DNA of 64,000 nucleotides from an uncultured Clostridia bacterium (GTDB lineage: Bacteria; Bacillota; Clostridia; Oscillospirales; Oscillospiraceae): contig CAMCRV010000005.1 in the NCBI GenBank assembly GCA_945877365.1, positions 1-64,000 on the forward strand, in the 5' to 3' direction. Positions 8,380 through 27,562 of this stretch are shown in pieces; the first letter of the stretch is position 1, and every line of letters begins with the position of its first letter. Both the position numbers and the translations under genes were made by a program. The notes beneath the pieces were generated by a model, which saw only the letters and a program-made list of their open reading frames with translations, ran no database searches and had not been told where the DNA came from.

Positions 8380-11629
<3,250 letters not shown>

Positions 11630-11659
11630 TTCCCAATTTATCCCATCCGCAGCAGCGAA

Positions 11660-13195
11660 TTACTCCCATTCCACAGTGGCCGGGGGCTTGCTGGTGATGT
11701 CGTAGACTACCCGGTTGATGCCGGGAATCTCGCCGGTGATGCGGCTGCTGGCCCGTTCCAGAACCTCGAAGGGGATGTGGGTCCAGTCCACGGTCATAAA
11801 GTCGTCGGTGGTGACGCAGCGCAGAGCCACGGTGTGGCCGTAGGTGCGCATATCTCCCATGACGCCCACGCTGCGGGTATCGGTGAGAACGGCAAAATAC
11901 TGGCTGGCCATGCTCTTTGCGGTGCTGCTTTCCAGCTCCTGCCGGAAAATCCAGTCCGCTGTCCGCAGAACCTCCAGCTTGTCCTTGGTGATCTCGCCAA
12001 TGATCCGCACAGCCAGACCGGGGCCGGGGAAGGGCTGGCGGTAGACCAGCTCGGAGGGTATCCCCAGCTCCAGTCCTACTTTGCGCACCTCATCCTTGAA
12101 CAGGTCGCGCAGGGGCTCTACGATCTGCTCGAAGTCCATCCTCTCCGGCAGACCGCCCACATTGTGGTGGCTCTTGATGGTGCTGGCATTGCCGGCACCG
12201 CTTTCAATCACATCGGGATAGATGGTGCCCTGAACCAGCACCTGTACCTTCCCCAGCTTCCGGGCTTCTTCCTCAAAGACCCGGATGAATTCCTCCCCGA
12301 TGATTTTCCGCTTCCGCTCCGGCTCCGTTACGCCCTTCAGCTTTTCCAGAAACCGATCCTCAGCGTTGACCCGGATAAGATTCATGCCGAATCTGCCCCG
12401 GAAAATGGATTCCACCCAGTCGCCCTCATCCTTGCGCAGCAGACCGTGGTCTACAAACACGCAGGTCAGGTTGTCGCCGATGGCTCTGTGGAGCAGAACG
12501 GCTGCCACGGCACTGTCCACGCCGCCGCTGAGGGCGCACAGCACCTTCTTGCCGGACAGCTGCTTCTGATACTTTGCCACATTGCGCTGGACAAAGTCCT
12601 CCATGTTCCAGCTGCGATGGCAGCCGCAGATGTCGAACAGGAAGTTGTGGAGCATCTGGAAGCCGTAGGCGGTGTGGGATACCTCGGGGTGGAACTGCAC
12701 GCCGTAAAGCCTGCGGCTCTCGTCGCACATGGCGGCGCAGTGGCACTTGTCGGTGTGGGCGATGGTGCAGAAGCCCTGGGGCACCTGACTGATGAAGTCG
12801 GTGTGGCTCATCCAGCAGAAGGAGGTGTGGGGCACATCCCGGAACAGAGCACAGTCGGTGCTGTACAGGGTGGTTTTGCCGTATTCGCTGCTGCTTTCGG
12901 CGCTGGAAACGGTGCCTCCGGCCATATAGGCCATCAGCTGATCGCCGTAGCAGATGCCCAGCACCGGAATCCCCAGATTCAGAACCTGGGGGTCAAAGTG
13001 GGGGGAAGCGGGGTCATACACGCTGTTGGGGCCGCCGGTGAAGATGATGCCCTTGTAGCCGATCTGCCGGATCTCCGCCGGGGTGATTTTATTAAAGGGC
13101 TTGATTTCGGCGTAAACCTGCTGTTCCCGAACCCGTCGGGCAATCAGCTGGTTGTACTGGCCGCCGAAGTCCAATACCAGAATTTTTTCGTCCAT
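11660..13195 (-). CDS. guaA: GMP synthase (glutamine-hydrolysing)
   Basis: Converts XMP to GMP using glutamine and ATP. 511 residues. Domains in order: class I glutaminase ([17 protein letters not shown]; nucleophile in [22 protein letters not shown]), ATP pyrophosphatase with the PP-loop [12 protein letters not shown], and the C-terminal dimerisation domain ([13 protein letters not shown], ending PPATVEWE). Start set at 13195 behind AGGGAGG; an earlier in-frame ATG lies inside purB. It follows purB by 10 bases in the purine operon. Confidence 0.97.
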
Positions 13196-13205
13196 GGTGT
13201 CCTCC

Positions 13206-14621
13206 CTACAAATTGATCTGTGCGTCGGATTTGGCGATATCGGCAATCAGGGGTCTGATCTCTGCCAGGAAGGCATCCACCTGCTCCGGGCATCTTCCGA
13301 TATAGTGCATGGGATCCAGCGCGGCCTCCATCTCCTGCCGGGACATTCCGAATTCAGAATGCCGGGCAAGGTCAGAAAGCAGATCCCAGCTTTCGCCGTT
13401 TTTCATCTTGGCGGTGGCATCCATGGAGCAGCTGCGGATGATTTCATGCAGCTCCTGTCGGTTGCCGCCCCGCTTGACCCCTTCCATCATCAGGTTTTCC
13501 GTGGCGATGAAGGGCAGATACTCCCGGACGGTCTTTGCCACGATCTTTTCGTTGACATGAAGGCCGTTTGTAATGTTCTGTGCCAGCCGCAAAATGGCAT
13601 CGGCGCAGAGGAAGCCCTCGGGCATGGAGATGCGGCGGTTGGCGGAGTCGTCCAGCGTCCGCTCCAGCCACTGCACCGAGGCTGTCATGGGGGCGTTCAT
13701 GGCGTCGGTCATAAGATACCGGGCAAGGGAGCAGATCCGCTCGGAGCGCATGGGGTTGCGCTTGTAGGCCATGGCGGAGGAACCGATCTGGTTCTTCTCA
13801 AAGGGCTCCTCCACCTGCCGGTCATGCTGCAAAAGACGGATGTCGTTTGCCATGCGGTAGCAGCTCTGGGCAATGGCGGACAGGGCATTCAGGATACGGC
13901 TGTCCAGCTTCCGGGGATAGGTCTGACCGCAGACGCTGAAGCATCTGTCAAAGCCAAAGTCGGCGCTGATTTTCCGGTTCATTTCGTCAATTTTCGCCGT
14001 GTCGCCGCTGAACAGCTCCACAAAGCTGGCCTCAGTGCCGGTGGTGCCCCGGCAGCCCAGAAATTTCATGTTGTCGATGACAAAATCCAGCTCCTCCAGA
14101 TCTGCCAGCAGATCCTGCATCCACAGGGTGGCCCGCTTGCCCACCGTCACCAGCTGGGCAGGCTGATAGTGGGTATAGCCCAGGGTGGGGGTGGCCTTGT
14201 AGGTATCGGCAAACTCGGACAGGTTGCGGATTACCTTTAGCAGCTCTCCCCGGAGGTATCTCAGACCGTCCCGGTACAGGACAATGTCGGCGTTGTCGGT
14301 GACATAGCAGCTGGTGGCTCCCAGATGGATGATTCCGGCGGCGGAGGGGGCTGCCTTTCCATAGGTGTAGACATGGGCCATCACATCGTGGCGCACTTCC
14401 TTTTCCCGCTGGGCGGCGCAGTCAAAATCGATGTCGGTGATATGCTGCTGAAGCTCCTCTACCTGCTGGGCTGTGATGGGCAGACCCAGCTCCATCTCTG
14501 CTTTGGCAAGGGATACCCACAGCCGTCTCCAGGTTTCAATCCGCTTCTGGGCGGAGAACAGGTGAAGCATATACTCCGATGCGTAACGGGAGCTGAGGGG
14601 GGATTCGTACTTTTCCGTCAT
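13206..14621 (-). CDS. purB: Adenylosuccinate lyase
   Basis: Acts twice in purine synthesis, splitting SAICAR to AICAR and adenylosuccinate to AMP, releasing fumarate. 471 residues, all-helical fumarase/aspartase fold. The signature loop is [15 protein letters not shown], and the His-containing helix [15 protein letters not shown] is also clear. purA lies 10 bases upstream and guaA 10 bases downstream on the same strand, so the order purA-purB gives the last two steps to AMP side by side. Confidence 0.97.
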
Positions 14622-14631
14622 GGCTTTCTCC

Positions 14632-15906
14632 TTATCGAATGATGATGCTGTCCCGCTCCGGACCTACGGAGACATATCCGATGCGGCAGCCGATCTGCTG
14701 CTCCACATAGGTCACATAGCGCTGGGCAGCGGCAGGCAGCTCCTCCCAGCGGCGCACACCGCTGATGTCGCACTGCCATCCATCCAGATATTCTACCACA
14801 GGCCGGGCGTTTTGCAATGCCGTGGGGAAGGGAAATTCATCGGTTTCCACCCCATCCACCACATATCGGGTGCATACGGGAATCTTCTCCATGTAGCTTA
14901 GCACATCCAGCTTGGTCAGGGCGATGTTGGTGGCGGCCTGAACCTGCACACCGTACCGGGTGGCTACCAGATCAATGGGACCCACCCGACGGGGACGGCC
15001 GGTTTTCGCGCCATATTCCGCACCGGCGGTGCGCAGAGCCTCGGCTTCCTCGCCGAACATCTCGCACACAAAGGGGCCTTCGCCCACACAGGTGGAGTAG
15101 GCCTTCACCACGCCGATGACCTCGTCGATCTTGGCAGAGGGCAGGCCGGAGCCCACGGGGGCGTAGGCGGCAATGGCGTTGGAGGAGGTGGTGTAGGGAT
15201 AGATGCCGTAATCCAGATCCCGAAGGGCGCCCAGCTGAGCCTCAAAGAGAATCTTTTTGCCGCCGTTCTGGGCATCCCGGAGGAACAGACCTGTGTTGCA
15301 GATAAAGGGCTTGATCTTTTCACAATAGTCGTCAAACCATGCGTACAGGTCATCCAGAGCGATGGGGGTTTCTCCATACACCCCTGTGATGGTGAGGTTT
15401 TTCCATTCCAGCAGATCCTTCAGATGCTCCTTCAGGTGCTCCGGGTGGAGCAGCTCACCGGCCAGAATGGTTTTCTTCTGGTATTTGTCGGAATAGAAGG
15501 GGGCAATGCCCTGTTTGGTGGAGCCGTACTTCCGATCCTTCAGCCGGTTCTCCTCCAGACAGTCCAGCTCCCGGTGCCAGGGCAGCAGCAGGGAAGCCCG
15601 GTCGCTGATTTTCAGGTTTTCCGGGGTGATGGGTACGCCCTTGCCGGATACCTCCTGCATTTCCTTCCACAGGTTTTCCGGGTCCAGCGCCACGCCGTTG
15701 CCCAGAATGTTTACCACACCCTTGCGGAAAATGCCGGAGGGCAGCAGATGCAGGGCGAACTTGCCGTATTCGTTGATGACGGTGTGTCCGGCGTTGCCGC
15801 CGCCCTGATAGCGGACGACGATGTCATAGTCCTCGGTGAGCAGATCCACCATCCGACCCTTGCCTTCGTCACCCCAGTTGATGCCAACAATCGCTGTGTT
15901 TCCCAT
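14632..15906 (-). CDS. purA: Adenylosuccinate synthetase
   Basis: Joins IMP and aspartate using GTP to form adenylosuccinate. 424 residues, the normal length. The N-terminal phosphate loop NWGDEGKGRMVD contains the catalytic Asp, and GGGNAGHTV is the IMP/GTP-binding stretch with the catalytic His. TGRPRRVGPIDLVATRYGV is the conserved C-terminal region. It is 12 bases downstream of purC in one operon. Confidence 0.97.
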   Translation of the reverse strand: MGNTAIVGINWGDEGKGRMVDLLTEDYDIVVRYQGGGNAGHTVINEYGKFALHLLPSGIFRKGVVNILGNGVALDPENLWKEMQEVSGKGVPITPENLKISDRASLLLPWHRELDCLEENRLKDRKYGSTKQGIAPFYSDKYQKKTILAGELLHPEHLKEHLKDLLEWKNLTITGVYGETPIALDDLYAWFDDYCEKIKPFICNTGLFLRDAQNGGKKILFEAQLGALRDLDYGIYPYTTSSNAIAAYAPVGSGLPSAKIDEVIGVVKAYSTCVGEGPFVCEMFGEEAEALRTAGAEYGAKTGRPRRVGPIDLVATRYGVQVQAATNIALTKLDVLSYMEKIPVCTRYVVDGVETDEFPFPTALQNARPVVEYLDGWQCDISGVRRWEELPAAAQRYVTYVEQQIGCRIGYVSVGPERDSIIIR

Positions 15907-15918
15907 TTATCTGTCTCC

Positions 15919-16635
15919 TTATTTCAGATGCTCTTCCAGACGGCGCATGATCTCGGCGTAGGCCTCCTCCACGCCTCCCAGATCCCGGCGGAAGCGGTCC
16001 TTATCCAGCTTTTCTTTGGTCTCGGAATCCCATAGGCGGCAGGTATCGGGGCTGATTTCGTCTGCCAGCACGATGGTGCCGTCGCTGAGACGGCCGAACT
16101 CCATCTTGAAATCCACCAGCGTCACGCCGCAGCCTGCCCAGAATTCCTTCAGCAGGTCGTTGACCTGAAAAGAGAGGGCTTCGATGGTGGCAAGCTCCTC
16201 TTTCGTCACCAGCTTCAGAGCCAGGGCGTGCCGGGCGTTCAGCAGGGGGTCGCCCAGAGCGTCGTTTTTGTAGGAGTATTCGATGGTGGGCTCGTCGAAG
16301 ACGATGCCCTCCTCCACGCCGTAGCGCTTGGCGAAGGAACCGGCGGAGATGTTGCGGATAATCACTTCCAGAGGAACAATCTGCACCTTTTTCACCAGAG
16401 TCTCCCGCTGGCTCAGCTCGCGGACGAAGTGGGTGGGAACGCCCCGGCGCTCCAGCAGCTGCATCAGCCGGTTGCTCATCTGATTGTTGATGACGCCCTT
16501 ACCGGCGATGGTGCCCTTTTTCAGCCCGTTGAAGGCGGTGGCATCGTCCTTGTACTGCACAATGAGAAGCTCGGGATCTTCGGTGGCAAATACCTTCTTT
16601 GCCTTGCCTTCGTAAAGTTGTTCTTTCTTTTCCAT
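15919..16635 (-). CDS. purC: SAICAR synthetase
   Basis: Adds aspartate to CAIR with ATP to form SAICAR. 238 residues, the typical bacterial single-domain form. It starts with [14 protein letters not shown] (nucleotide-binding glycine-rich loop) and contains [19 protein letters not shown] and [10 protein letters not shown], both family signatures, and the [13 protein letters not shown] substrate motif. It follows asnB by 33 bases. Confidence 0.97.
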
Positions 16636-16668
16636 GAATGGTTTCCTCCTAAGTTTGTATTCTTTATA

Positions 16669-18249
16669 TTATTTACCGCTGGCGCCGTAGTTTGACAGGA
16701 CGCGGGCAGAGGGGTCGTTGACATTGCAGCCCTTCCATTCCTTGTTGGGCATCCAGAAATCCACAATCATCTGAGACTGACCGGGATAGTATTTTTCAAA
16801 CAGCTCCCGGTACAGCAGGGATTCCTTGGTAAAGGGCTGAGGGTTTTTGTATTTCCGGCAGAGGGTGTCGAATTCCAGATCGGTGTACTGCTCGGCTGCG
16901 TATTCCTTCAGGTGATCCACCATGGAATGTCCCACGGCATCGGAGAAGGCGGCCTTCTCGCGCCACAGGATTTCGTCCGGGAGATACTCCAGCCCTTCAA
17001 AGGCATGGCGCAGCAGGTACTTGCCCTTGCCGTAGGTGTTCAGCTTCCTGGCCGGGTTAATGGCCATGACATACTTTACGAAGTCCAGATCTCCGAAGGG
17101 TACCCGGGCCTCCAGAGAGTTGACGCTGATGCATCGGTCAGCCCGGAGCACATCGTACATATGCAGCTCCCGGATTCGCTTCTGAGCCTCCTTCTGGAAG
17201 GCCTCGGCGGAGGGGGCAAAGTCGGTGTACTTGTAGCCGAACAGCTCGTCGGAGATTTCGCCGGTGAGCAGTACCCGGATGTCGGTGTTCTCGTGGATGT
17301 ATTTGCACACCAGATACATACCGATGCTGGCGCGGATGGTGGTGATGTCGTAGGTGCCCAGCAGCTCCACCACCGGTTCCAGAGCCTCCAGAACCGTTTC
17401 CTTGGAGATGATCACCTCGGTGTGGTCACTTCCGATGAAGTCTGCCACCTGCCGGGCGTACTTCAGGTCGATGGCATCCTCGTTCATGCCGATGGCAAAG
17501 GTGCGGATGGGCTTGCTGCTCTGCCGGGCGGCGATGGCGCAGACCAGAGAGGAGTCCAGACCTCCGGAGAGAAGGAAGCCCACCTTGGCATCTGCCACCA
17601 GCCGCTTCTGGACACCGGCAATCAGCTTTTCCCGGATGTTTGTGCAGACGGTTTCCAGATCCTGGTCATGGTAGCTGGGAGCGTTGGCAATGTCGCAGTA
17701 GCAGGTGAATTTCCCGTCCTTGTAGAAGTGTCCGGGAGGGAAGGGAAGGATGGTGCCCACCAGACCCACCAGATTTTTGGGCTCGCTGGCAAAGACAATC
17801 TCACCATTAGCATCATACCCATAGTACAGCGGCCGGATACCGATGGGATCTCTGGCTGCCACAAAGGTGTCCTCTTTGGCATCGTAGAGGATGCAGGCAA
17901 ATTCTGCATCCAGCATGGCGAACATATCGGTGCCGTATTTTTCGTACATGGGCAGCATCACCTCGCAGTCGGAGTCGCTGCAGAAGGTGTACTCCCCGGA
18001 CAGGGACTGACGGATTTTTTCAAAGCCGTAGATCTCGCCGTTGCACACCACTGCGCTGCCGTTCAGGGTGAAGGGCTGCATCCCCTCGGGGTGCAGACCC
18101 ATGATGGAAAGCCGGTGAAAGCCCAAAAGACCCTGCCCTGCAGAAATCACCCGGGAATCGTCAGGACCTCTGGAAACGGTGCGGGAAAAGCCCTCCTGAA
18201 AGGCTTTGGGGTCTATGGGAGTGCCGCAGTAACCAATAATGGAACACAT
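16669..18249 (-). CDS. asnB: Asparagine synthase B (glutamine-hydrolysing)
   Basis: Makes asparagine from aspartate, ATP and glutamine. 526 residues. Cys2 (MCSIIGYCG) is the class II glutaminase nucleophile after Met removal; the SRGPDDSR and VCNGEIYGF motifs line the glutamine site. The synthetase half carries the PP-loop LLSGGLDSSLVCAIAA. It lies between glnN and purC on the same strand, separated from glnN by a 94-base gap with a hairpin, placing it among the direct users of the glutamine made by glnN. Confidence 0.95.
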   Translation of the reverse strand: MCSIIGYCGTPIDPKAFQEGFSRTVSRGPDDSRVISAGQGLLGFHRLSIMGLHPEGMQPFTLNGSAVVCNGEIYGFEKIRQSLSGEYTFCSDSDCEVMLPMYEKYGTDMFAMLDAEFACILYDAKEDTFVAARDPIGIRPLYYGYDANGEIVFASEPKNLVGLVGTILPFPPGHFYKDGKFTCYCDIANAPSYHDQDLETVCTNIREKLIAGVQKRLVADAKVGFLLSGGLDSSLVCAIAARQSSKPIRTFAIGMNEDAIDLKYARQVADFIGSDHTEVIISKETVLEALEPVVELLGTYDITTIRASIGMYLVCKYIHENTDIRVLLTGEISDELFGYKYTDFAPSAEAFQKEAQKRIRELHMYDVLRADRCISVNSLEARVPFGDLDFVKYVMAINPARKLNTYGKGKYLLRHAFEGLEYLPDEILWREKAAFSDAVGHSMVDHLKEYAAEQYTDLEFDTLCRKYKNPQPFTKESLLYRELFEKYYPGQSQMIVDFWMPNKEWKGCNVNDPSARVLSNYGASGK

Positions 18250-18343: not shown

Positions 18344-20440
18344 TTAGCGCACACCAAACAGCAGTTCGCCGTAGGTGGGGAAGGGCCAGTATTTTTCGGA
18401 TGTAACGGTTTCGGCTTCATCAACAGCAGCCCGGAGTGCTGCCATTGCGCCGATGACGGTATCCCGGATGGCGTAGGACTCGCTGATGATGTCCCCGGAA
18501 TCCTTCAGAGCCAGAAGGCTGGCCTCAAGGTCGTCGGTGCGTCCGGCAATCTGGTCAGTCAGGGCAGACAGCTTGGTCAGCAGGTCGGTCTCATACTGGC
18601 AGGCCAGGGCGGGGGCAACGGCCTTCTTTGCGGCGATGGTGCCGGCCAGCTCAGCGCAATAGCCTTCCGTGGCGGGCAGAATCTGCTTTCTGGCCATATC
18701 CACCATGGTGTTGGCCTCGATGACCACGGTCTTGCAGTAGTTCTCCAGCATGATTTCGCACCGGGACTTCAGCTCGGCCACGGTGAACACCTTGTGGGCG
18801 GTGAGCATCTGCACATTCTTCTCGTCCAGAATGTGGGGCATACAGTCGGGGGTGGTGGGGTAGTTGCACAGACCCCGAACCTCGGTGGCCTCCTTGATCC
18901 AGGCGTCGTCATAGCCGTTGCCGTTGAAGATGATCCGCTTGTGATCCTTGATGGTCTTGCGAATCATCTCATGCAGAGCGGTCTGGAAGTCCTCGGCGGC
19001 CTCCAGACGGTCGGCGTAGATCTTCAGGGACTCTGCCACGGCAGCGTTCAGCATGATGTTGGCGCAGGCGATGGAGTTGGAGGAGCCCAGCATCCGGAAC
19101 TCAAACTTGTTGCCGGTGAAGGCGAAGGGAGAGGTACGGTTGCGGTCGGTGGTGTCCCGGGCGAACCGGGGCAGAATATCCACACCCAGCTTCATGGTCT
19201 TGCGCTTGGCAGCCTCGTAGGGGGTGTCGTTCTCAATGGCATCCAGAATGCCCTGCAGCTCGTCGCCCAGGAAGATGGAGACCACTGCCGGAGGTGCTTC
19301 GTTGGCGCCCAGCCGGTGGTCGTTGCCGGCGGTAGCCACGGAGATCCGCAGCAGATCCTGATAGTCGTCCACGGCCTTGATGACGGCGCACAGGAACAGC
19401 AGGAACTGGGCATTCTCATAGGGGGTCTCGCCGGGGGACAGCAGGTTCACACCGGTGTCGGTGGCGATGGACCAGTTGTTGTGCTTGCCGGAGCCGTTGA
19501 CACCGGCGAAGGGCTTCTCATGGAGCAGGCACACCAGACCATGCTTGGCGGCTACCTTCTGCATGATCTCCATGGTCAGCTGGTTATGGTCGGTGGCGAT
19601 GTTGGTGGTGGTGTAGATGGGAGCCATCTCGTGCTGGGCGGGGGCAACCTCGTTGTGCTCGGTCTTGGCCAGAATTCCCAGCTTCCACAGCTCCTCGTTG
19701 AGGTCAGCCATATAGGCTTCCACCCGGGGCTTGATGACACCGAAGTAGTGATCGTCCATCTCCTGACCCTTGGGGGGCTTGGCGCCGAACAGAGTGCGGC
19801 CGGTGAAGATCAGATCCTTGCGCTTTTCATACAGCTCCTTGGGAACCAGGAAGTATTCCTGCTCGGGACCCACGGAGGTGCGGACGCACTTCACTTCCTC
19901 GTTTCCGAAGAGCTTCAGAATCCGCATGGCCTGCCGGTTCAGGGCTTCCATGGAGCGAAGCAGGGGGGTCTTCTTGTCCAAAGCCTCGCCGCCGTAGGAG
20001 CAGAAGGCCGTGGGGATGCACAGGGTCTTGCCCTTGATGAATGCGTAGGAGGTGGGGTCCCAGGCGGTGTAGCCCCGGGCTTCGAAGGTTGCCCGCAGGC
20101 CGCCGGAGGGGAAGGAGGAGGCATCCGGCTCACCCTTGATCAGTTCCTTGCCGGAGAAGTCCATAATCACGCCGCCGTCGGGGGCGGGGGAGATGAAGCT
20201 GTCGTGCTTCTCGGCGGTGATGCCGGTCAGAGGCTGGAACCAGTGGGTATAGTGGGTGGCACCCTTGGAAATGGCCCAGTCCTTCATGGCGGCAGCCACG
20301 GCGTTGGCAACGCTTGCGTCCAGCTTGGCACCTTCATCGATGGTTTTGCGCAGGGACTGATAGACATCGGCGCTGAGGTTTGCTTTCATGACCCGGTCGT
20401 CAAAAACGAGACAGCCAAAATAATCGGAAACAGTACCCAT
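18344..20440 (-). CDS. glnN: Glutamine synthetase type III
   Basis: Forms glutamine from glutamate, ammonia and ATP. 698 residues, characteristic of the large type III (GlnN) class found in Bacteroidetes and some Firmicutes. Catalytic-domain stretches visible include VGPEQEYFLVP, AKTEHNEVAPAQHEMAPI, HEKPFAGVNGSGKHNNWS and NRTSPFAFTGNKFEFRM, the family's metal- and nucleotide-binding loops. Start chosen at 20440 behind AAAGGAGAG. The leader contains a terminator-type attenuator with an ANTAR-like hairpin (20465-20514), so expression is probably set by antitermination. It heads the series asnB-purCAB-guaA. Confidence 0.95.
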   Translation of the reverse strand: MGTVSDYFGCLVFDDRVMKANLSADVYQSLRKTIDEGAKLDASVANAVAAAMKDWAISKGATHYTHWFQPLTGITAEKHDSFISPAPDGGVIMDFSGKELIKGEPDASSFPSGGLRATFEARGYTAWDPTSYAFIKGKTLCIPTAFCSYGGEALDKKTPLLRSMEALNRQAMRILKLFGNEEVKCVRTSVGPEQEYFLVPKELYEKRKDLIFTGRTLFGAKPPKGQEMDDHYFGVIKPRVEAYMADLNEELWKLGILAKTEHNEVAPAQHEMAPIYTTTNIATDHNQLTMEIMQKVAAKHGLVCLLHEKPFAGVNGSGKHNNWSIATDTGVNLLSPGETPYENAQFLLFLCAVIKAVDDYQDLLRISVATAGNDHRLGANEAPPAVVSIFLGDELQGILDAIENDTPYEAAKRKTMKLGVDILPRFARDTTDRNRTSPFAFTGNKFEFRMLGSSNSIACANIMLNAAVAESLKIYADRLEAAEDFQTALHEMIRKTIKDHKRIIFNGNGYDDAWIKEATEVRGLCNYPTTPDCMPHILDEKNVQMLTAHKVFTVAELKSRCEIMLENYCKTVVIEANTMVDMARKQILPATEGYCAELAGTIAAKKAVAPALACQYETDLLTKLSALTDQIAGRTDDLEASLLALKDSGDIISESYAIRDTVIGAMAALRAAVDEAETVTSEKYWPFPTYGELLFGVR

Positions 20441-20464: not shown

Positions 20465-20514
20465 AAATAAAAAGGGCGTCTTCGAGCCGCAGCTCAAAGA
20501 CGCCTTTGCCTTAC
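20465..20514 (-). promoter_or_regulatory. glnN leader attenuator with ANTAR-type hairpin
   Basis: The predicted transcript begins near 20514. First comes a hairpin with stem AAGGC/GUCUU and hexaloop AAAGGC (loop 20502-20507), having A at position 1 and G at position 4 as in known ANTAR-protein RNA targets. Its 3' arm overlaps the 5' arm of a terminator (GGCGUCUU...AAGACGCC, 20475-20504, inner stem GAGC/GCUC) followed by a T-run. The two folds exclude each other. Sequence is direct; regulation is inference. Confidence 0.7.
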
Positions 20515-20521
20515 GGGTTGC

Positions 20522-20550
20522 ATTGTACATCACGGAGGGGCGTTTGTCAA
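20522..20550 (-). promoter_or_regulatory. Promoter of glnN
   Basis: Minus strand TTGACA (20545-20550), 17 bases, TACAAT (20522-20527), a near-perfect SigA promoter. It faces away from the glutamate synthase promoter 37 bases away. Confidence 0.85.
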
Positions 20551-20586
20551 CACCCTGCACAAAAAAAGTTTTTCATTCTGTACACA

Positions 20587-20615
20587 TTGACAAAAACCAA
20601 AATATGACATATAAT
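20587..20615 (+). promoter_or_regulatory. Promoter of the split glutamate synthase operon
   Basis: TTGACA (20587-20592), 17 bases, TATAAT (20610-20615): exact consensus. Transcription should start near 20622, directly before the attenuator. Confidence 0.88.
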
Positions 20616-20621
20616 CCAGGC

Positions 20622-20690
20622 AATGAATAAAGGCGTTCATGGGAAGGGCAGCTTTGCCCCTCCGGTGAACGCCTTTTTATTTTTAATCCG
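20622..20690 (+). promoter_or_regulatory. Leader attenuator of the glutamate synthase operon
   Basis: Hairpin AUGAAU/GUUCAU with hexaloop AAAGGC (loop 20629-20634), the same loop as in the glnN leader, with A1 and G4 of the ANTAR target pattern. It overlaps the 5' arm of a terminator whose outer stem is AAAGGCGTTCA/TGAACGCCTTT (20629-20675) with an inner GGGC/GCCC hairpin, then a long T-run. Unless antiterminated, most transcripts should end here before the 20707 start codon. Confidence 0.72.
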
Positions 20691-20706: not shown

Positions 20707-21798
20707 ATGAAACCAGAAGGCCAGATTCGGATTCCCTCCGGGTGCGCCATTGCCGCCGTGATCTCCAAAGAGGGCAGACGGATGTCCGGCGAAGGAATCC
20801 TGAACGCCATGAAGCCCATGCACGACCGCTCCAACGGCCTGGGCGGCGGCTTCGCCGGCTACGGCATCTATCCCCAGTACCGGGATTTTTACGCCTTACA
20901 TATGTTTTTCGACCGGCGGGAAACCCGGAAGAGCTGCGAGGTGTTCCTGAAGGAACGCTTTGAAATCGTACAGTCGGAGATCATCCCCACCCGGAAGACC
21001 CCGGCCATCACCGACGAGCCCATTATCTGGCGGTATTTTGTAACCCCCCTGCGCAGCGCCAAAAACGCCATGCAGGTGGACGAACGGGAGTTCGTTTCCA
21101 GAGCGGTGATGAAGATCAACAACGAAATACCCGGTGCCTTTGTGTTCTCCAGCGGCAAGAATATGGGCGCCTTCAAGGCTGTGGGCTTCCCCGAGGATGT
21201 GGGAGAATTTTACCGGCTGGAAGAGTACGAGGGCTATTCCTGGACGGCTCATGGCCGTTATCCCACCAATACCCCCGGCTGGTGGGGCGGTGCTCACCCC
21301 TTCACATTGCTGGACTATTCCGTCGTACACAACGGCGAAATCTCCTCCTACGATGCCAACCGCCGGTTCATTGAGATGTTCGGCTACAAGTGCAGCCTGC
21401 AAACCGATACCGAGGTCATCACCTACATTCTGGACTACCTGCTGCGGCGGCAGGGGATGACCATCGAGGAGGCAGCCAGCGTTATTGCCGCTCCCTTCTG
21501 GAGCACCATTGAGAAGCTGCCCGCCGAAGAGCAGAAGCGGCTGGCCTATTTGAGAACCGTGTTCCCCAGCCTGCTGATTACCGGACCTTTTTCCATTGTC
21601 TTCGGCTTTGAGGGCGGTCTCATGGCGCTCAACGACCGGCTGAAGCTGCGCTCCATGGTGGTGGGGCAGAAGGACGACAAGGTTATGATTGCCAGTGAAG
21701 AAGCAGCCATCCGGGTCATGGAGCCGGATGCAGAAAGAATCTCGGCCCCTGCCGGCGGCGAGCCGGTGATCATCCGGGTCAAGGAGGGTGCATTTTAA
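20707..21798 (+). CDS. Glutamate synthase amidotransferase component (class II, stand-alone)
   Basis: 363-residue class II glutamine amidotransferase corresponding to the N-terminal domain of GltB, here a separate protein as in archaeal-type glutamate synthases. It should release ammonia from glutamine for the partner encoded next. The expected nucleophile is Cys13 (RIPSGCAIAAV), so a 12-residue propeptide must be removed. Other features are ERSNGLGGGFAGYGIYP-like residues after a variant of the family motif and WTAHGRYPTNTPGWWGGAHP, the glutamine-binding region. Start chosen at 20707 behind AAAGGGTGG. TAATG overlap with the next gene. Confidence 0.85.
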   Translation: MKPEGQIRIPSGCAIAAVISKEGRRMSGEGILNAMKPMHDRSNGLGGGFAGYGIYPQYRDFYALHMFFDRRETRKSCEVFLKERFEIVQSEIIPTRKTPAITDEPIIWRYFVTPLRSAKNAMQVDEREFVSRAVMKINNEIPGAFVFSSGKNMGAFKAVGFPEDVGEFYRLEEYEGYSWTAHGRYPTNTPGWWGGAHPFTLLDYSVVHNGEISSYDANRRFIEMFGYKCSLQTDTEVITYILDYLLRRQGMTIEEAASVIAAPFWSTIEKLPAEEQKRLAYLRTVFPSLLITGPFSIVFGFEGGLMALNDRLKLRSMVVGQKDDKVMIASEEAAIRVMEPDAERISAPAGGEPVIIRVKEGAF

Positions 21799-23303
21799 TG
21801 GGTGTGGAATTTTTATATCCGGAATTTGAAGTGGTTCGCAACACCAACCGGTGTATTGCCTGCCGGGTCTGTGAGCGTCAGTGCGCCAACGAGGTGCACC
21901 GCTACGACCCCGATGCCAAGTGCATGGTCTGCGATGAAAGCAAGTGCGTCAACTGCCAGCGGTGCGTCAGCCTGTGCCCCACCCGGGCACTGAAGATCGT
22001 CAAGAGCGACTGCACCCTCCGGGAAAACGCCAACTGGCAGAATGATACCATCCGGGAGATTTACAAGCAGGCAAACTCCGGCGGTGTGCTGCTGTCCAGC
22101 ATGGGCAACCCCAAGGAGTTCCCGGTGTACTGGGACAAGATTCTTCTGAACGCCTCTCAGGTTACCAATCCCCCCATCGACCCCCTCCGGGAGCCTATGG
22201 AGACCAAGGTGTTTCTGGGCAGAAAGCCGGAGAAGATCGAACGGGATGCTTCCGGCAACATTATCTGCGACCTGCCGCCCCAGCTGGAGCTGAGTATGCC
22301 GGTGATGTTCTCCGCCATGAGCTACGGCTCCATCAGCTACAACGCCCACGCCAGTCTGGCAAGGGCCGCCCGGGAGCTGGGAATTTACTACAACACCGGC
22401 GAAGGCGGCCTCCACGAGGACTTCTATGTCTACGGCGACCGCACCGTGGTGCAGGTGGCCTCCGGTCGTTTCGGTGTCCATAAGGACTATCTGGAGGCCG
22501 GTGCTGCCATCGAGATCAAGATGGGTCAGGGCGCAAAGCCCGGCATCGGCGGACACCTCCCTGGTGCCAAGATTGTGGGAGATGTGTCCCGCACCCGGAT
22601 GGTGCCGGAGGGCTCCGACGCCATCTCCCCGGCACCCCATCACGATATCTATTCCATCGAAGACCTGCGCCAGCTGGTGTACTCTTTGAAGGAGGCCACG
22701 CAATACCGCAAGCCCATCATTGTTAAGGTGGCGGCGGTGCACAACATTGCCGCCATTGCCAGCGGCATTGCCCGCAGCGGCGCGGATATCATCGCCATCG
22801 ACGGCTTCCGGGGCGGCACCGGCGCGGCTCCCACCCGAATCCGGGACAATGTGGGCATCCCCATTGAGCTGGCACTGGCTGCCGTGGATCAGCGGCTCCG
22901 GGACGAGGGCATCCGCAACCGGGTGTCTCTGGTGGTAGGCGGCAGCATCCGCAGCGCGGCGGATGTGGTAAAGGCCGTGGCTCTGGGCGCGGATGCCTGC
23001 TATATTGCCACCGCAGCGCTGCTGGCTCTGGGCTGTCACCTGTGCCGTAGCTGTCAGGGAGGCAAGTGCAACTGGGGCATCGCCACCCAGCGTCCGGATC
23101 TGGTGAAGCGGCTGAACCCGGATATCGGCAGCCAGCGGCTGGTGAACCTGATGACGGCCTGGCAGCATGAGATCAAGGAGCTGATGGGCGGCATGGGCAT
23201 CAATTCCATCGAAGCCCTCTGCGGAAACCGCCTGATGCTCCGGGGCGTGGGGCTGACGGAGAAGGAACTGGAGATTCTGGGCATCGCCCATGCCGGAGAA
23301 TAA
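21798..23303 (+). CDS. Glutamate synthase FMN/Fe-S catalytic component (archaeal type)
   Basis: 501 residues. The N-terminus carries a ferredoxin-like domain with ten Cys between residues 19 and 60 (CIACRVCERQC, CVNCQRCVSLCP). The FMN-binding GltB-type barrel follows (SAMSYGSISYNAHASLARAA, EGGLHEDFY, GQGAKPGIGGHLPG, DGFRGGTGAAPT), with a third cluster motif CHLCRSCQGGKCNWGIA. It should combine ammonia and 2-oxoglutarate to glutamate using electrons from the Fe-S chain. One base overlap with the amidotransferase gene supports a complex. Confidence 0.9.
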   Translation: MGVEFLYPEFEVVRNTNRCIACRVCERQCANEVHRYDPDAKCMVCDESKCVNCQRCVSLCPTRALKIVKSDCTLRENANWQNDTIREIYKQANSGGVLLSSMGNPKEFPVYWDKILLNASQVTNPPIDPLREPMETKVFLGRKPEKIERDASGNIICDLPPQLELSMPVMFSAMSYGSISYNAHASLARAARELGIYYNTGEGGLHEDFYVYGDRTVVQVASGRFGVHKDYLEAGAAIEIKMGQGAKPGIGGHLPGAKIVGDVSRTRMVPEGSDAISPAPHHDIYSIEDLRQLVYSLKEATQYRKPIIVKVAAVHNIAAIASGIARSGADIIAIDGFRGGTGAAPTRIRDNVGIPIELALAAVDQRLRDEGIRNRVSLVVGGSIRSAADVVKAVALGADACYIATAALLALGCHLCRSCQGGKCNWGIATQRPDLVKRLNPDIGSQRLVNLMTAWQHEIKELMGGMGINSIEALCGNRLMLRGVGLTEKELEILGIAHAGE

Positions 23304-23315
23304 GGAGGCCGCGAC

Positions 23316-23744
23316 ATGAAACGGGTATATGTAAATGAAGAATGGTGCCTTGGGTGCCATCTGTGCGAATATAACTGCGCCTTTGCCAATTCCGGGGAAA
23401 CGGACATGGTGAAGGCTCTGAAGGGCAAGCCCATCTTCCCCCGGATCCGGGTGGAGGGGGAGAACCTGATCCACTTTGCGGTGTCCTGCCGCCATTGTCA
23501 GGATCCCATCTGCGTCAACAGCTGCATCTCCGGTGCGCTGAGCGTAAAGGACGGACGGGTCTGCATCGATCACACCCGGTGCGTGGGCTGCCTGACCTGT
23601 ATGCTGGTCTGTCCCTATGGCGCCCTGTCAAAGGGGCCGGAGGGAGCCGTCCAGAAGTGCGAGCTGTGTCTGGAAAACGCCTGCGGGGAGCCGGCCTGCG
23701 TCAAGGGCTGCCCCAACCGGGCCATCGTCTATGAGGAGAGGTGA
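23316..23744 (+). CDS. Four-cluster-type 4Fe-4S ferredoxin (glutamate synthase operon)
   Basis: 142-residue electron carrier with Cys groups resembling DmsB/HycB-type iron-sulfur subunits: WCLGCHLCEYNC, CRHCQDPICVNSC, CVGCLTCMLVCP and CELCLENACGEPACVKGCP, enough for about four [4Fe-4S] clusters. It probably carries electrons between the pyridine-nucleotide oxidoreductase downstream and the FMN component upstream. GGAGG lies before the ATG, and the next gene overlaps or abuts its stop. Confidence 0.88.
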   Translation: MKRVYVNEEWCLGCHLCEYNCAFANSGETDMVKALKGKPIFPRIRVEGENLIHFAVSCRHCQDPICVNSCISGALSVKDGRVCIDHTRCVGCLTCMLVCPYGALSKGPEGAVQKCELCLENACGEPACVKGCPNRAIVYEER

Positions 23745-23749
23745 GGCAG

Positions 23750-24991
23750 ATGAAGCAATATGTGATCATCGGCAACGGTGTGGCCGCCACGGGCTGCGTG
23801 GAGGGCATCCGCAGCGCAGACCCGGAGGGAAAAATCACCGTGATCTCCGGGGAGAACCGCCCGGTGTACTGCCGCCCCCTGATCTCCTACTATCTGGAGG
23901 GCAAAGCAACCCCGGAAAAGATGAATTACCGCAACCCTGATTTTGCGGAAAAAATGCACTGTGCGTATTTATACGGAAAGCAAGCTGTGCAGCTGGATGC
24001 CAAAACCGTGGTTCTGGACGACGGCACCGTTCTTCCCTATGATGAGGTATGTATTGCCGCAGGCTCCGTACCCTTTGTGCCCCCCTTTGCCGGGCTGGAT
24101 ACTGTGGAAAAGCAGTTCTCCTTTATGACCATGGACGATGCCCTGGCTCTGGATGCAGCTGTCAACAAGGACAGCCGGGTGCTGATTGTGGGTGCAGGTC
24201 TTATCGGCCTGAAATGCGCCGAGGGTCTCCACGGACGGGTGGCCTCCATCACGGTCTGTGACCTGGCAGACCGGGTGCTGTCCAGCATCCTGGACACCCG
24301 GAGTGCCGCCGTGATGCGGCAGCATCTGGAAGAAAACGGGATTCATCTTCTGCTGGGAGATACGGTTTCTCGGTTTGAGAAGAATGTGGCTTCTATGCGC
24401 AGCGGCACGGAGGTAGAATTTGATGTGCTGGTGCTGGCGGTGGGCGTAAAGGCCAACACCGCACTGGCCCGTCAGGCTGGGGCGGAGGTTAACCGGGGCA
24501 TTCTGGTGAACGAAAAAATGGAGACCACCGTGCCCGGCATCTTCGCCGCCGGAGACTGCACCGAGGGCATGGATGCCTCTCTGGGTCAGCGCCGGGTGCT
24601 GGCCATTCTGCCCAATGCCTATTTACAGGGCAGATGCGCCGGCATCAACATGGCAGGGGGGAATGCCGTCCATGACCGGGCCATTCCCATGAACTCTCTG
24701 GGTCTGCTGGGGCTGCATGCCATGACCGCCGGAACCGCCTTCTCCGAGGCTGACGGCGGCAGCATGGTGGAGGAGAAGAGCGAGGCAGGCTGGAAGCGTT
24801 TCTTCCTCAAGGACGGATATTTGACGGGCTTCATGCTGCTGGGAGATGTGGACAGAGCCGGAATCTACACGGCCCTGATCCGGGAGAAGACCCCTCTGGA
24901 TTCCATCGACTTTGCAGCGCTGAAAAAAAGTCCCACTTTGGCGGCAATGCCCAAAGAAAACCGTAGAAAAAAGCTGGGAGGTGTGGTATAA
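23750..24991 (+). CDS. NAD(P)/FAD-dependent oxidoreductase (glutamate synthase operon)
   Basis: 413-residue pyridine nucleotide-disulphide oxidoreductase-type flavoprotein. The FAD motif is YVIIGNGVAATGCVEGI, the NAD(P) motif is VLIVGAGLIGLKCAEGL, and the second FAD contact is TVPGIFAAGDCTEG. No redox-active Cys pair is seen. It probably feeds NAD(P)H electrons to the ferredoxin gene just upstream, replacing the GltD subunit of the bacterial enzyme. An in-frame GTG at 23741 overlaps the previous stop, but the ATG at 23750 has GAGGTGAGG at the right distance. Confidence 0.87.
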   Translation: MKQYVIIGNGVAATGCVEGIRSADPEGKITVISGENRPVYCRPLISYYLEGKATPEKMNYRNPDFAEKMHCAYLYGKQAVQLDAKTVVLDDGTVLPYDEVCIAAGSVPFVPPFAGLDTVEKQFSFMTMDDALALDAAVNKDSRVLIVGAGLIGLKCAEGLHGRVASITVCDLADRVLSSILDTRSAAVMRQHLEENGIHLLLGDTVSRFEKNVASMRSGTEVEFDVLVLAVGVKANTALARQAGAEVNRGILVNEKMETTVPGIFAAGDCTEGMDASLGQRRVLAILPNAYLQGRCAGINMAGGNAVHDRAIPMNSLGLLGLHAMTAGTAFSEADGGSMVEEKSEAGWKRFFLKDGYLTGFMLLGDVDRAGIYTALIREKTPLDSIDFAALKKSPTLAAMPKENRRKKLGGVV

Positions 24992-24993
24992 CT

Positions 24994-25716
24994 ATGGTAG
25001 TGATCGATGCAAAGGATAAGCAGAGCCGGGAACTCAACGACCTGATCCGCGGAGCAGGGGAGGAATGCACCGTAACCGGCTGCTGCGGTCAGCGGTTTCT
25101 GGGAGCCGGAATGTCCGGCGTGAACATCACCATGGAGGGCATCCCCGGAAACGCTTTGGGAGCCTACCTCAACGGCGCGCAGATTACCGTCCACGGCAAC
25201 GCACAGGATGCCGTGGGAGATACCATGAATGACGGACGGATTGTGGTGCACGGCAGCATCGGCGATGCCGCAGGCTACGCCATGCGGGGCGGAGAGATCT
25301 TCGTTCAGGGAAATGCCGGCTATCGGGCCGGAATCCACATGAAGGAATACGGGAAGAAGATCCCGGTTATGGTCATCGGCGGCTGCGCCGGCAGCTTTCT
25401 GGGGGAATATCAGGCCGGCGGCATCCTTCTGGTGCTGGGTCTCAATGCCCAGGGAAAGCCTGTTGTCAATAATTTCCCCTGCACCGGTATGCACGGCGGA
25501 AGGCTGATTCTTCGGGGGGATGTCTCCGGACTGAGCTTCCCCGGACAGGTCACCGCCAGACCGGCCGGAGCTGAGGATATGGAACTGATTGCAAAGTATG
25601 TAAAGACCTATTGTGACCTGTTTGGAGGGGACTGTGGGGACATTCTGAAGGCTCCCTTCACTGTGGTCAGCCCGGACAGCAGCAACCCCTATAAGCAGAT
25701 GTATGTAGCAAATTAA
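24994..25716 (+). CDS. GXGXG-domain component of glutamate synthase
   Basis: 240-residue protein made of the right-handed beta-helix found at the C-terminus of GltB and in formylmethanofuran dehydrogenase subunit C. Repeated G-x-x-x-G turns are visible (GMSGVNITMEGIPGNALG, NGAQITVHGNAQDAVGD, DGRIVVHGSIGDAAG, GGEIFVQGNAGYRAG). In glutamate synthases this helix is structural, holding the amidotransferase and FMN domains in register. Together with the four preceding genes it completes a glutamate synthase split over five polypeptides. Confidence 0.9.
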   Translation: MVVIDAKDKQSRELNDLIRGAGEECTVTGCCGQRFLGAGMSGVNITMEGIPGNALGAYLNGAQITVHGNAQDAVGDTMNDGRIVVHGSIGDAAGYAMRGGEIFVQGNAGYRAGIHMKEYGKKIPVMVIGGCAGSFLGEYQAGGILLVLGLNAQGKPVVNNFPCTGMHGGRLILRGDVSGLSFPGQVTARPAGAEDMELIAKYVKTYCDLFGGDCGDILKAPFTVVSPDSSNPYKQMYVAN

Positions 25717-25736: not shown

Positions 25737-26945
25737 ATGAAGTACACGCCGCAGGAAGTCATGCAGTATATTCAGGAGGAGGATGTGAAGTTCATCCGCC
25801 TGGCATTTTGCGATGTTTTTGGCCGACCCAGAAACATCTCCATCATGCCCCATGAGCTGGAACGGGCCTTCAAGTATGGCATTGCCATCGATGGCTCTGC
25901 CATTGCCGGGTTCGGCGACGAGGTACATTCCGACCTGTTTCTGCACCCCGATCCGGCCACCATCACCGTGCTGCCCTGGCGGCCGGAGAACGGCCGGGTG
26001 GTGCGGATGTTCTGCTCCATCGCCCATCCCGACGGCACCGCCTTTGCCCACGACAGCCGGAACATTCTGAAGCAGGCCATTGCGGATGCAGCCAGAATGG
26101 GCTATACCTTCTCCTTCGGATCGGAGCTGGAATTCTATCTGTTCCGGCTGGATGAAGAGGGCAATCCCACCCATATTCCCTACGACAATGCCACCTATAT
26201 GGAGGTGGCACCGGAGGACAAGTGCGAAAATGTCCGCCGGGAGATCTGCCTGACCTTGGAGCGGATGGGAATTATGCCGGAGTCCTCCCACCATGAGGAA
26301 GGCCCCGGTCAGAATGAAATTGATTTCCGCTATTCCGACGCCCTCAGCGCGGCGGACAATGCCGTGACCTTCTGCACCGTGGTGAAGACCATCGCCGCCC
26401 GGAACGGCCTGTTTGCCGATTTTTCCCCAAAGCCCCTGCAGGAGAACCCCGGCAGCGGCTTCCACATCAACATCTCCGTCAAGGGCGGCGGCGAGATGGT
26501 GATGCACCGTGCCATGGGAGGGATCCTGCGGCATATCGGAGATATGACCCTGTTCCTGAACCCCACGGAGCGTTCCTACCAGCGGCTGGGAAGTCACAAG
26601 GCTCCCAAGTACATCTCCTGGTCCAGCGACAACCGTTCCCAGCTGATCCGGGTGCCCGCGGCGGACGGGGAGTATCGCCGCTTTGAGCTTCGCAGCCCCG
26701 ACTGCACCGCCAACCCCTATCTGGCCTTTGCCCTGCTGATCTGGGCGGGGCTGGACGGAATCCTCAACAATATCGCCCTGCCGGAAAGCTCCAATGTGAA
26801 TCTGTATACCGCCTCCCCCAGAGACCTTTGGGGGCTGGAAACCCTGCCCCTGACCCGCAATCTGGCGGCAAAGCTGGCTCTGGCCAGCCCCTTTATCCGG
26901 GAGCACCTGCCCCAGTCGCTGATCACTTACTTCTGCGAACGGTAG
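25737..26945 (+). CDS. glnA: Glutamine synthetase type I (short form)
   Basis: 402 residues; class I enzymes usually have 440-470. The N-terminal beta-grasp domain (VKFIRLAFCDVFGRPRNISI) and the catalytic domain (SELEFYLF, HHEEGPGQNEIDFRY, GSGFHINIS, FELRSPDCTANPYLAF) are complete. The protein stops at HLPQSLITYFCER, lacking the last ~25-residue helix that Bacillus GlnA uses in self-inhibition and regulator contacts. It is the second glutamine synthetase of the window and shares an operon with glutamate synthase, so ammonia assimilation by the GS-GOGAT cycle is encoded in one unit. Confidence 0.92.
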   Translation: MKYTPQEVMQYIQEEDVKFIRLAFCDVFGRPRNISIMPHELERAFKYGIAIDGSAIAGFGDEVHSDLFLHPDPATITVLPWRPENGRVVRMFCSIAHPDGTAFAHDSRNILKQAIADAARMGYTFSFGSELEFYLFRLDEEGNPTHIPYDNATYMEVAPEDKCENVRREICLTLERMGIMPESSHHEEGPGQNEIDFRYSDALSAADNAVTFCTVVKTIAARNGLFADFSPKPLQENPGSGFHINISVKGGGEMVMHRAMGGILRHIGDMTLFLNPTERSYQRLGSHKAPKYISWSSDNRSQLIRVPAADGEYRRFELRSPDCTANPYLAFALLIWAGLDGILNNIALPESSNVNLYTASPRDLWGLETLPLTRNLAAKLALASPFIREHLPQSLITYFCER

Positions 26946-26977: not shown

Positions 26978-27562
26978 ATGGTATTCAGCGACCAGACCTA
27001 CAGCGTGCTGGTAGTTTCGGCTGCCCGGAAGTTCTGCGATGCCATCGCGCCGCTGCTTCCGTATTCTGAGTATTACCCCGTGTGCTATGTGGACAATATT
27101 GCCGCGGCGAAGCGGGAACTGCTGAGCAGGAGCTATGACCTTGTGCTGATCAACGCACCTCTGCCGGATGACTTCGGCACCCGGTTTGCCATCGACACCA
27201 GCGGCAGAGCGGACTGTGCGGTGCTGCTGTTTCTGCGCTCCGAGGTGTATGAAGAGGTGAATTTGAAGGTTCAGCCCTACGGGGTCTTTACCCTTCAGGT
27301 TCCCACGCCGGTGCAGACCCTGAAGCAGGGACTGCAGTGGATGACGGCAGCCAGAGAGCGGCTGCGCCGGCTGGAAAAGAAAACTGTCAGCATGGAGGAG
27401 AAGATGGAGGAGATCCGTCTGGTGAATCGAGCCAAGTGGATTCTCATCGAGCAGCTGAAGATGACGGAGGCAGAGGCTCACCGCTTCATCGAAAAGCAGG
27501 CCATGGATCGGTGCTCTGCCAAAAGGGAGATTGCCCTGGGCATCATCAAAACCTATCAGTAA
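26978..27562 (+). CDS. ANTAR-domain antiterminator with degenerate receiver domain
   Basis: 194 residues. Residues ~8-118 resemble a response-regulator receiver but lack its key acids: the N-terminal DD pair is replaced (VLVVSAARKF) and the phospho-acceptor Asp by Asn (DLVLINAPLP). A coiled coil (residues ~121-140, RLEKKTVSMEEKMEEI) leads to the ANTAR RNA-binding domain (VNRAKWILIEQLKMTEAEA, KREIALGIIK). ANTAR proteins bind paired hairpins and prevent termination. Its targets are probably the two AAAGGC-loop leaders of this cluster. An ANTAR regulator (NitR) next to glnA has been described in Clostridium saccharobutylicum, from memory. Confidence 0.88.
   Translation: MVFSDQTYSVLVVSAARKFCDAIAPLLPYSEYYPVCYVDNIAAAKRELLSRSYDLVLINAPLPDDFGTRFAIDTSGRADCAVLLFLRSEVYEEVNLKVQPYGVFTLQVPTPVQTLKQGLQWMTAARERLRRLEKKTVSMEEKMEEIRLVNRAKWILIEQLKMTEAEAHRFIEKQAMDRCSAKREIALGIIKTYQ

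Follow-up and report, generated by a model that had tools for sequence, protein, structure and literature searches.

The divergent leaders of two nitrogen operons in an uncultured Clostridia bacterium (Oscillospirales; Oscillospiraceae) each open with a single ANTAR-type hexaloop hairpin, and it is likely, with a probability of roughly 0.8 as judged from comparative sequence analysis, that a NitR-like ANTAR protein antiterminates both leaders through this one 5′-end hexaloop per transcript. The DNA analyzed, hereafter the window, is a stretch of 64,000 nucleotides comprising positions 1–64,000 of CAMCRV010000005.1 (assembly GCA_945877365.1), which is contig C5 of a 2.15-Mb draft genome.

The Divergent Nitrogen Operons

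The minus strand of the window carries glnN, encoding a type III glutamine synthetase (18347–20440; PF12437, PF18318, and PF00120), and the divergent plus strand carries a glutamate synthase operon whose last genes are glnA and an ANTAR gene. The plus-strand operon begins with gltA1 (20707–21798; PF00310), encoding the class-II glutamine amidotransferase subunit of glutamate synthase, followed by the rest of the cluster as identified by family search (21798–25716), namely the glutamate synthase core (21798–23303), a 4Fe-4S protein (23316–23744), an FAD oxidoreductase (23741–24991), and a GXGXG subunit (24994–25716). The glutamine synthetase gene glnA (25737–26945; PF00120/PF03951) lies directly upstream of the gene for the presumed antiterminator, a NitR-like protein with a pseudo-receiver and an ANTAR domain (26978–27562). 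The first-pass annotation had placed an ANTAR gene at the end of this operon, and the PF03861 profile bears this out with a score of 54.9 bits against a cut-off of 27.3; in a search of the whole draft genome it was the sole ANTAR gene found.

Downstream of glnN, co-directional open reading frames form a putative extension of its transcript (11660–18249, minus strand). From sequence recognition rather than family search, we take these to be asnB (18249–16669), purC (16635–15919), purA (15906–14632), purB (14621–13206), and guaA (ending at 11660). A scan from glnN to guaA returned no strong promoter or terminator between genes, apart from a weak 9/12 promoter-like site at 14817–14790, and the glnN transcript probably runs on through asnB, purC, purA, purB, and guaA. 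The gap between guaA and pyrG (11425–11665, minus strand) is occupied by a palindromic MITE-like element whose ends carry repeats of TTGACAATTGACAATT / AATTGTCAATTGTCAA; promoter-like matches arise from it as well. Past this element lie pyrG-like and purF-like genes in the same direction (8380–11402, minus strand), and glutamine-using nucleotide genes reach approximately 12 kb beyond the glnN leader. Elsewhere in the window, a leucine-rich-repeat-like surface protein is encoded on the plus strand (31091–33534) in two overlapping frames (31091–31765 and 31753–33534), a possible frameshift.

Leader Anatomy and Proposed Mechanism

Two sigma-70 promoters of nearly perfect match (12/12 and 11/12), each with a 17-nt spacer, lie between the operons. 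The glnN promoter, TTGACA-17-TACAAT (20522–20550, minus strand), is followed by the hairpin AAGGC[AAAGGC]GUCUU (20497–20512; loop 20507–20502), and the promoter of the glt-glnA-ANTAR operon, TTGACA-17-TATAAT (20587–20615, plus strand), by the hairpin AUGAAU[AAAGGC]GUUCAU (20623–20640; loop 20629–20634), in which a U·G pair stands in place of the closing C-G. Each hairpin starts 7–9 nt downstream of the –10 box, where transcription is predicted to begin. The glnN terminator (20465–20504) has a stem at 20504–20475, followed by CTTTTTATTT, and its 5′ arm is common to the hexaloop hairpin; the 5′ arm of the glt terminator (about 20629–20684, from the minimum free energy (MFE) fold) consists of the hairpin loop and 3′ stem. 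These terminators are the MFE folds of both leaders (–27.1 kcal/mol, z –3.75 for glnN; –35.0 kcal/mol, z –6.58 for glt), and hairpin and terminator are therefore mutually exclusive. The features first read from the letters of this region, namely an identical AAAGGC loop with A at position 1 (A1) and G at position 4 (G4) at both starts, stems that differ around this conserved loop, and an overlap with the 5′ arm of each terminator, all hold, the loop and 3′ arm of each hairpin serving a second time as the terminator 5′ arm.

An ANNG hexaloop on an equal or longer stem arose in 113 of 5000 dinucleotide shuffles of the glnN leader and in 27 of 5000 of the glt leader, and an identical hexaloop with a stem of at least 5 in both leaders at once arose in 0 of 5000. 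Neither leader matched an Rfam family at the gathering threshold; at E ≤ 1 there were only two matches, both dismissed as chance, one to a plasmid ctRNA (21.2 vs. 45 bits) and one to a microRNA family (17.1 vs. 84 bits). Another register, CAAA[GGCGTC]TTTG, was also rejected as the shared element, being present in glnN units alone and missing from glt.

In the mechanism that we infer, which covers ANTAR binding, the direction of control, and the signal, RNA polymerase would start at the hairpin, so that RC[ANNGNN]GY forms from the opening ∼20 nt of the transcript. An active ANTAR protein would grip the loop, with G4 flipped out and A1 holding the loop fold, and would keep the hairpin in place until transcription is beyond the U-tract. 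Deprived of the loop and 3′ arm that it shares with the held hairpin, the terminator could not form, and the operon would be read; with the ANTAR protein inactive, the far more stable terminator would win. Sharing a single-hexaloop attenuator, the glnN and glt leaders, along with a third before carAB elsewhere in the genome, would switch together, being on most likely under nitrogen limitation. The making and spending of glutamine would then be induced together, and the ANTAR gene, last in the glt-glnA operon, would be subject to positive feedback from its own product.

Distribution of the Unit in Relatives

Of 80 relatives, 43 carry an ANTAR homolog (44 by PF03861), and leaders were compared across 38 ANTAR loci, 20 further glnN-type leaders, and 20 leaders of the paralogous glnN2, half of the latter from genomes with an ANTAR gene (10) and half from genomes lacking one (10). 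The typical glnN1 or glt leader consists of a strong promoter, a hairpin of the form RC[ANNGNN]GY, and a terminator that uses the loop and 3′ arm. This unit is found at nitrogen operons throughout the order and in named Oscillospiraceae and Lachnospiraceae as well as in Candidatus Faecousia and Eubacterium sp. 14-2, and the geometry of the glnN promoter is matched in 48 distinct units of relatives. Among all leaders with a promoter of at least 10/12, an ANNG hexaloop (A1 and G4 both required) with a stem of at least 5 near +1 was present in 25 of 33 glnN1 leaders (0.58 expected from shuffles), 12 of 13 glt leaders (0.22 expected), and 4 of 8 glnA leaders (0.12 expected), and in none of the 4 glnN2 leaders. 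The full set of 20 glnN2 leaders likewise contained no hexaloop-terminator unit, with one chance hexaloop far upstream. A second type III glutamine synthetase of this kind, 59% identical and with a leader without an attenuator, is encoded at G000:C2:97933–99993 (L089), and it is the sole glnN in many ANTAR-less relatives of the genus.

Two complete hexaloop-terminator units stand in tandem before glnN in several genomes (L047, L048, L051, and L075–L079), which identifies hexaloop plus terminator as a repeating module; the tandem units often differ in loop sequence. The glnN leader of another genome (G078; L074) contains the hexaloop unit and no detected consensus promoter.

One Hexaloop or Two

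Published ANTAR targets contain two hexaloops, separated in eut by a linker of 5–12 nt and both needed in vivo (PMC3369931), and a search for actinobacterial targets allowed linkers of 2–25 nt (PMC8164766). Binding of NasR to a single hairpin is reported to be weak (∼12 μM), and this, like the need for both EutV hexaloops in vivo, speaks against a one-hexaloop switch. Later work on the EutV-RNA structure reduced the minimal site to one hexaloop, posed the extent of single-site use as a question, and expected such sites where polymerase timing is immaterial (PMC8934654). The glnN and glt leaders and the units of relatives lack the paired hexaloops of the 2012 definition of ANTAR target RNAs and share its six-base loop with A1 and G4, its conserved closing pairs (A-U and C-G in eut), and its overlap with an intrinsic terminator.

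An improbable alternative is that these leaders are degenerate dual targets, in which the apical hairpin of the terminator serves as the second hairpin and is recognized despite a non-consensus loop. Both window leaders do retain such a hairpin 3′ of the hexaloop, and the 5–12-nt spacing of hairpins in known targets gives the idea a precedent. The absence of a second canonical hexaloop, remarked on in the first-pass annotation, stands; the loop AGCUUU given there needs a small correction, since in the glt MFE fold its A and U are paired, leaving a 4-nt apical GCUU loop, and AGCUUU would be without G4 even if it formed a hexaloop. Across relatives, a second ANNG hexaloop (stem of at least 4) between hairpin and T tract occurred in 4 of 96 units (the best 98 of 100 matches minus the mis-registered L200+ and L218–) against 2.3 expected from shuffles. 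Two C[ANNGNN]G hexaloops no more than 25 nt apart were found in none of the 43 glnN and 15 glt leaders and in a single one of the 98 named-locus units (the best 98 of 100 matches, the 2 weakest having been dropped), in a scan that returned 2 of 30 at eutP loci, its intended positive control. The hexaloop overlaps the terminator and so corresponds in position to P2, the antitermination hairpin; it is P1, the hairpin for recruitment, that is absent. In all 96 units the hairpin starts 3–16 nt after the –10 box (6–11 nt in 88 of them), which leaves no room for a hairpin upstream. The missing second hexaloop is a stable trait of the element and no defect of the window copy.

Conservation of the Loop and Association With ANTAR Genes

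The covariance model (R1, which spans the –35 box to the hairpin end) and the pair counts were built from hairpins preselected for a stem of at least 4 pairs, G4, a C or T preceding the loop, and a G following it, which inflates the percentages paired and the G4 counts in the 48 distinct units and in both alignments below. The best 98 of 100 matches from named loci, some of which belong to genomes that also appear here under G numbers, have A at loop position 1 in 94 (G in 3), A at position 2 in 97, and G at position 4 in all 98. Position 3 is free (A 70, G 14, C 10, T 4), position 5 is mostly G (86; A 11), and position 6 mostly C (79; T 11, G 6, A 2). In 96 of these 98 the loop is closed by C-G, and the adjacent pair is G·U in 90, A-U in 6, and G-C in 2. 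The common G·U pair weakens the antiterminator, while its U can pair normally in the terminator. Loops with G at position 1, namely GAAGGC (L229 and L249, with L035 and L073 among the 48 distinct units) and GATGGC (L224), retain G at position 4. Stem cells changed on both sides numbered 49 in an alignment of 41 of the 48 distinct units (16.7 in shuffles; 0 of 500 as high) and 126 in one of 99 distinct rows (53.1 in shuffles; 0 of 500), the preselection of paired stems applying to both.

Among the 96 units, the terminator pairs with the loop or 3′ arm in 82 MFE folds, the 14 that fall outside the criterion counting against the proposed switch, and mean energies are –4.8 kcal/mol for the hairpin and –22.5 kcal/mol for the whole unit, a disparity suggesting that the hairpin would prevail only with the help of a protein.

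These loops could in principle be read without any ANTAR role, AAAGGC being the purine-rich terminator base that the U-tract demands and the hairpin being incidental or a matter of RNA stability. AAAGGC does complement the terminator 3′ arm GCCUUU in many units, and four ANTAR-less genomes keep the unit. Against this stand loops such as ACUGGC, AUUGGC, ACCGAC, and AAGGAC, which retain A1 and G4 on a covarying 5-bp stem. Where the MFE terminator fold leaves the loop bases unpaired, position 1 is still A in 40 of 42 cases and position 4 still G in 16 of 16 (96 units), and unpaired position 3 is A in 19, C in 7, T in 3, and G in 2; terminator pairing does not explain the conservation of A1 and G4. 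The absence of the unit from glnN2 leaders and its strong association with ANTAR genes argue in the same direction, and a reading without ANTAR is very unlikely.

The association was assessed by searching R1 and the PF03861 profile in the same 247 genomes of the order. R1 matches at E ≤ 1e-4 (rough values, from a shortened calibration) occurred in 104 of 162 genomes with an ANTAR gene and in 7 of 85 without (Fisher p 1e-18, not phylogeny-corrected, with two sub-threshold ANTAR matches, G272 and G284, scored as absent). The 58 of 162 ANTAR-positive genomes without a strong match, a further point against the proposed switch, partly reflect the sensitivity of R1, since one of them (G001) contains both hairpins and no R1 match. 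Among the exceptions in the other direction, the ANTAR gene of G270 is cut by a contig end, and in G190 and G196 the matched leaders have a broken hexaloop. The last two retain the promoter and terminator-like repeat before pyrG (L160, G190) and a gdhA-like gene (L159, G196), which also runs counter to a role for the loop in the terminator alone; natural decay after loss of the ANTAR gene is a possible origin of this state. The remaining four (G021, G063, G121, and G266) have intact hexaloops before purC, asnA, purA, and glnN and no ANTAR gene by either search. They speak against a simple one-to-one rule of hexaloop and ANTAR gene, except if an ANTAR gene escaped detection or a different protein takes its role, and together with the few copies that have G at position 1 they count against an ANTAR attenuator. 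Many weak R1 matches in G078 and G173 (below about 31 bits) are promoter-driven, with the loop absent, and were rejected as regulon members.

The reverse action, in which the ANTAR protein binds the hexaloop to favor termination or to affect mRNA stability or translation, has a parallel in actinobacterial ANTAR proteins described as acting on translation (PMC8164766) but is hardly credible here, as a bound hairpin takes away the terminator 5′ arm and antitermination is the mechanism by which NitR reportedly induces GS/GOGAT genes (PMC6316151).

The ANTAR Protein and Its Candidate Sensor

The ANTAR protein of the window is 194 aa long, with a receiver-like domain followed by ANTAR, and is predicted by AlphaFold with a pLDDT of 91.1. 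Among the matches listed, its best query-normalized TM-score is to RNA-bound EutV (6ww6; 0.77), with Rv1626 and AmiR also near the top; NCBIfam returned no model for it. The EutV contacts K143, K147, K149, E160, Y164, and M172 (numbering matched to the PDB chain by its letters) correspond to R147, R151, K153, E164, H168, and M176, all invariant in 32 of 32 homologs. The EutV contact R142 is I or L in window-type proteins, and Y164 is H, as it also is in AmiR; these two differences count against an EutV-like mode of contact.

The ANTAR-type attenuator proposed for the window leaders finds good support in several comparative lines: A1, G4, and the closing C-G are kept while other positions vary, the hairpin excludes the terminator, the unit co-occurs with ANTAR genes, glnN2 leaders are without it, a third site lies before carAB, and the EutV-type contacts are invariant.

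The phospho-accepting Asp of EutV-type response regulators is absent from the window protein. Position 59, aligned to the receiver Asp of Rv1626, is N in 28, D in 2, Q in 1, and S in 1 of the 32 homologs, and the prevalence of N makes phosphorylation unlikely. Of 80 named loci examined, 3 start at the ANTAR gene; in each of the other 77, which extend far enough upstream, glnA directly precedes it, with a median gap of 39 bp. Other ANTAR proteins are paired with their sensors, as in AmiC, EutW, and NasS (PMC3795266), and in Bacilli glutamine synthetase is the nitrogen sensor for GlnR and TnrA (PMC9249791; PMC6316151). With a receiver lacking the phosphorylated Asp, the adjacent glutamine synthetase becomes a candidate sensor, and by this analogy GlnA may sense for the window ANTAR protein.

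The Putative Regulon

In the draft genome itself, R1 identifies three clear sites, before glnN (51.2 bits), glt (43.0 bits), and carA (34.3 bits), the last reading GUAAGC[AAGGGC]GCUUAU with a terminator, and carA being assigned by family search. A fourth match, at a livK-like gene (C18:14223; 25.3 bits), has a 3-bp stem and no T-tract and was rejected. Units in relatives lie before gdhA (L121 by family search; L126 and L127 by the same protein start), amtB (L138, by family search), carA, asnA, and purC, with shorter-stem units before an ATP-grasp gene and a class-I amidotransferase; the pyrG unit in G190 has decayed. Of the 80 named loci, 54 have an R1 match. At glnN1 a match lies no farther than 450 bp away in 35 of 42 cases, and at gltA1 in 29 of 33. 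All 7 glnN1 misses have an R1 match ∼1.5 kb upstream on the same strand, which would fit a gdhA-glnN operon.

Relation to Known Systems and Significance

The leaders resemble the ANTAR target RNAs of EutV (eut), NasR (nasF), and AmiR (ami) in the A1/G4 hexaloop, a closing C-G beside a U-ending pair, overlap with the terminator 5′ arm, and nitrogen genes downstream (Ramesh 2012, PMC3369931). They differ in that those targets have two tandem hexaloops with a short linker, whereas here one lies at the extreme 5′ end, in the P2 position. Predictions from 2012 already placed ANTAR sites in front of glutamate synthase and other nitrogen genes (PMC3369931), NitR of C. saccharobutylicum is an ANTAR protein that, according to a review, antiterminates GS/GOGAT genes on nitrogen limitation (PMC6316151), and the Clo1313_2030–2036 cluster of C. 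thermocellum unites amidotransferase, glutamate synthase, 4Fe-4S, GS, and ANTAR genes (PMC4676874). The control logic is therefore known. The window likewise has its ANTAR gene within a glt-GS cluster and a predicted antitermination of nitrogen assimilation, the likeness to NitR being to its description; in contrast to that system, the RNA site is mapped here, and the putative targets also include glnN with asparagine and purine genes, carAB, and, in relatives, gdhA and amtB. The pairing of a regulator gene with glnA recalls the GlnR/TnrA-glutamine synthetase circuit of Bacilli, where glutamine synthetase is the nitrogen sensor (PMC9249791; PMC6316151), although that circuit works through a DNA-binding repressor/activator rather than an RNA antiterminator and the GS-ANTAR contact considered here is hypothetical. 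What is new is the one-hexaloop, start-site-proximal architecture, its breadth, and the strict glnA-ANTAR pairing. Single-hexaloop ANTAR attenuators were not found described in the open literature, which misses most subscription papers, including the primary NitR paper.

Whether one hexaloop suffices for antitermination in the cell is a question left by the EutV structural work, which treats one hexaloop as the contact unit of an ANTAR dimer and calls for a bioinformatic search for single-hexaloop sites (PMC8934654). The window leaders agree with that minimal site but, contrary to its expectation, would be co-transcriptional attenuators, the setting for which that work regarded two hexaloops as necessary. 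By their sequences, leaders of this type look like a direct answer to the single-site question, and a large natural set (at least 98 copies from named loci), without a recruitment hairpin and with transcripts that begin at the hexaloop, makes the question directly testable. The leaders further sketch a nitrogen regulon in many uncultured gut Clostridia, for whose detection they supply a covariance model.

The strict pairing of glnA with the ANTAR gene, together with a receiver that is probably not phosphorylatable, leads to a concrete sensor hypothesis. In its fullest form, which we regard as tentative and somewhat doubtful, one-hexaloop, promoter-proximal ANTAR attenuators would constitute a glutamine making and spending regulon of gut Clostridia, with GlnA sequestering the phosphorylation-dead pseudo-receiver at high glutamine and releasing it at low. 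If this is true, a metabolic enzyme would be the sensor of an RNA antiterminator, and ANTAR antitermination could do without the recruitment hairpin.
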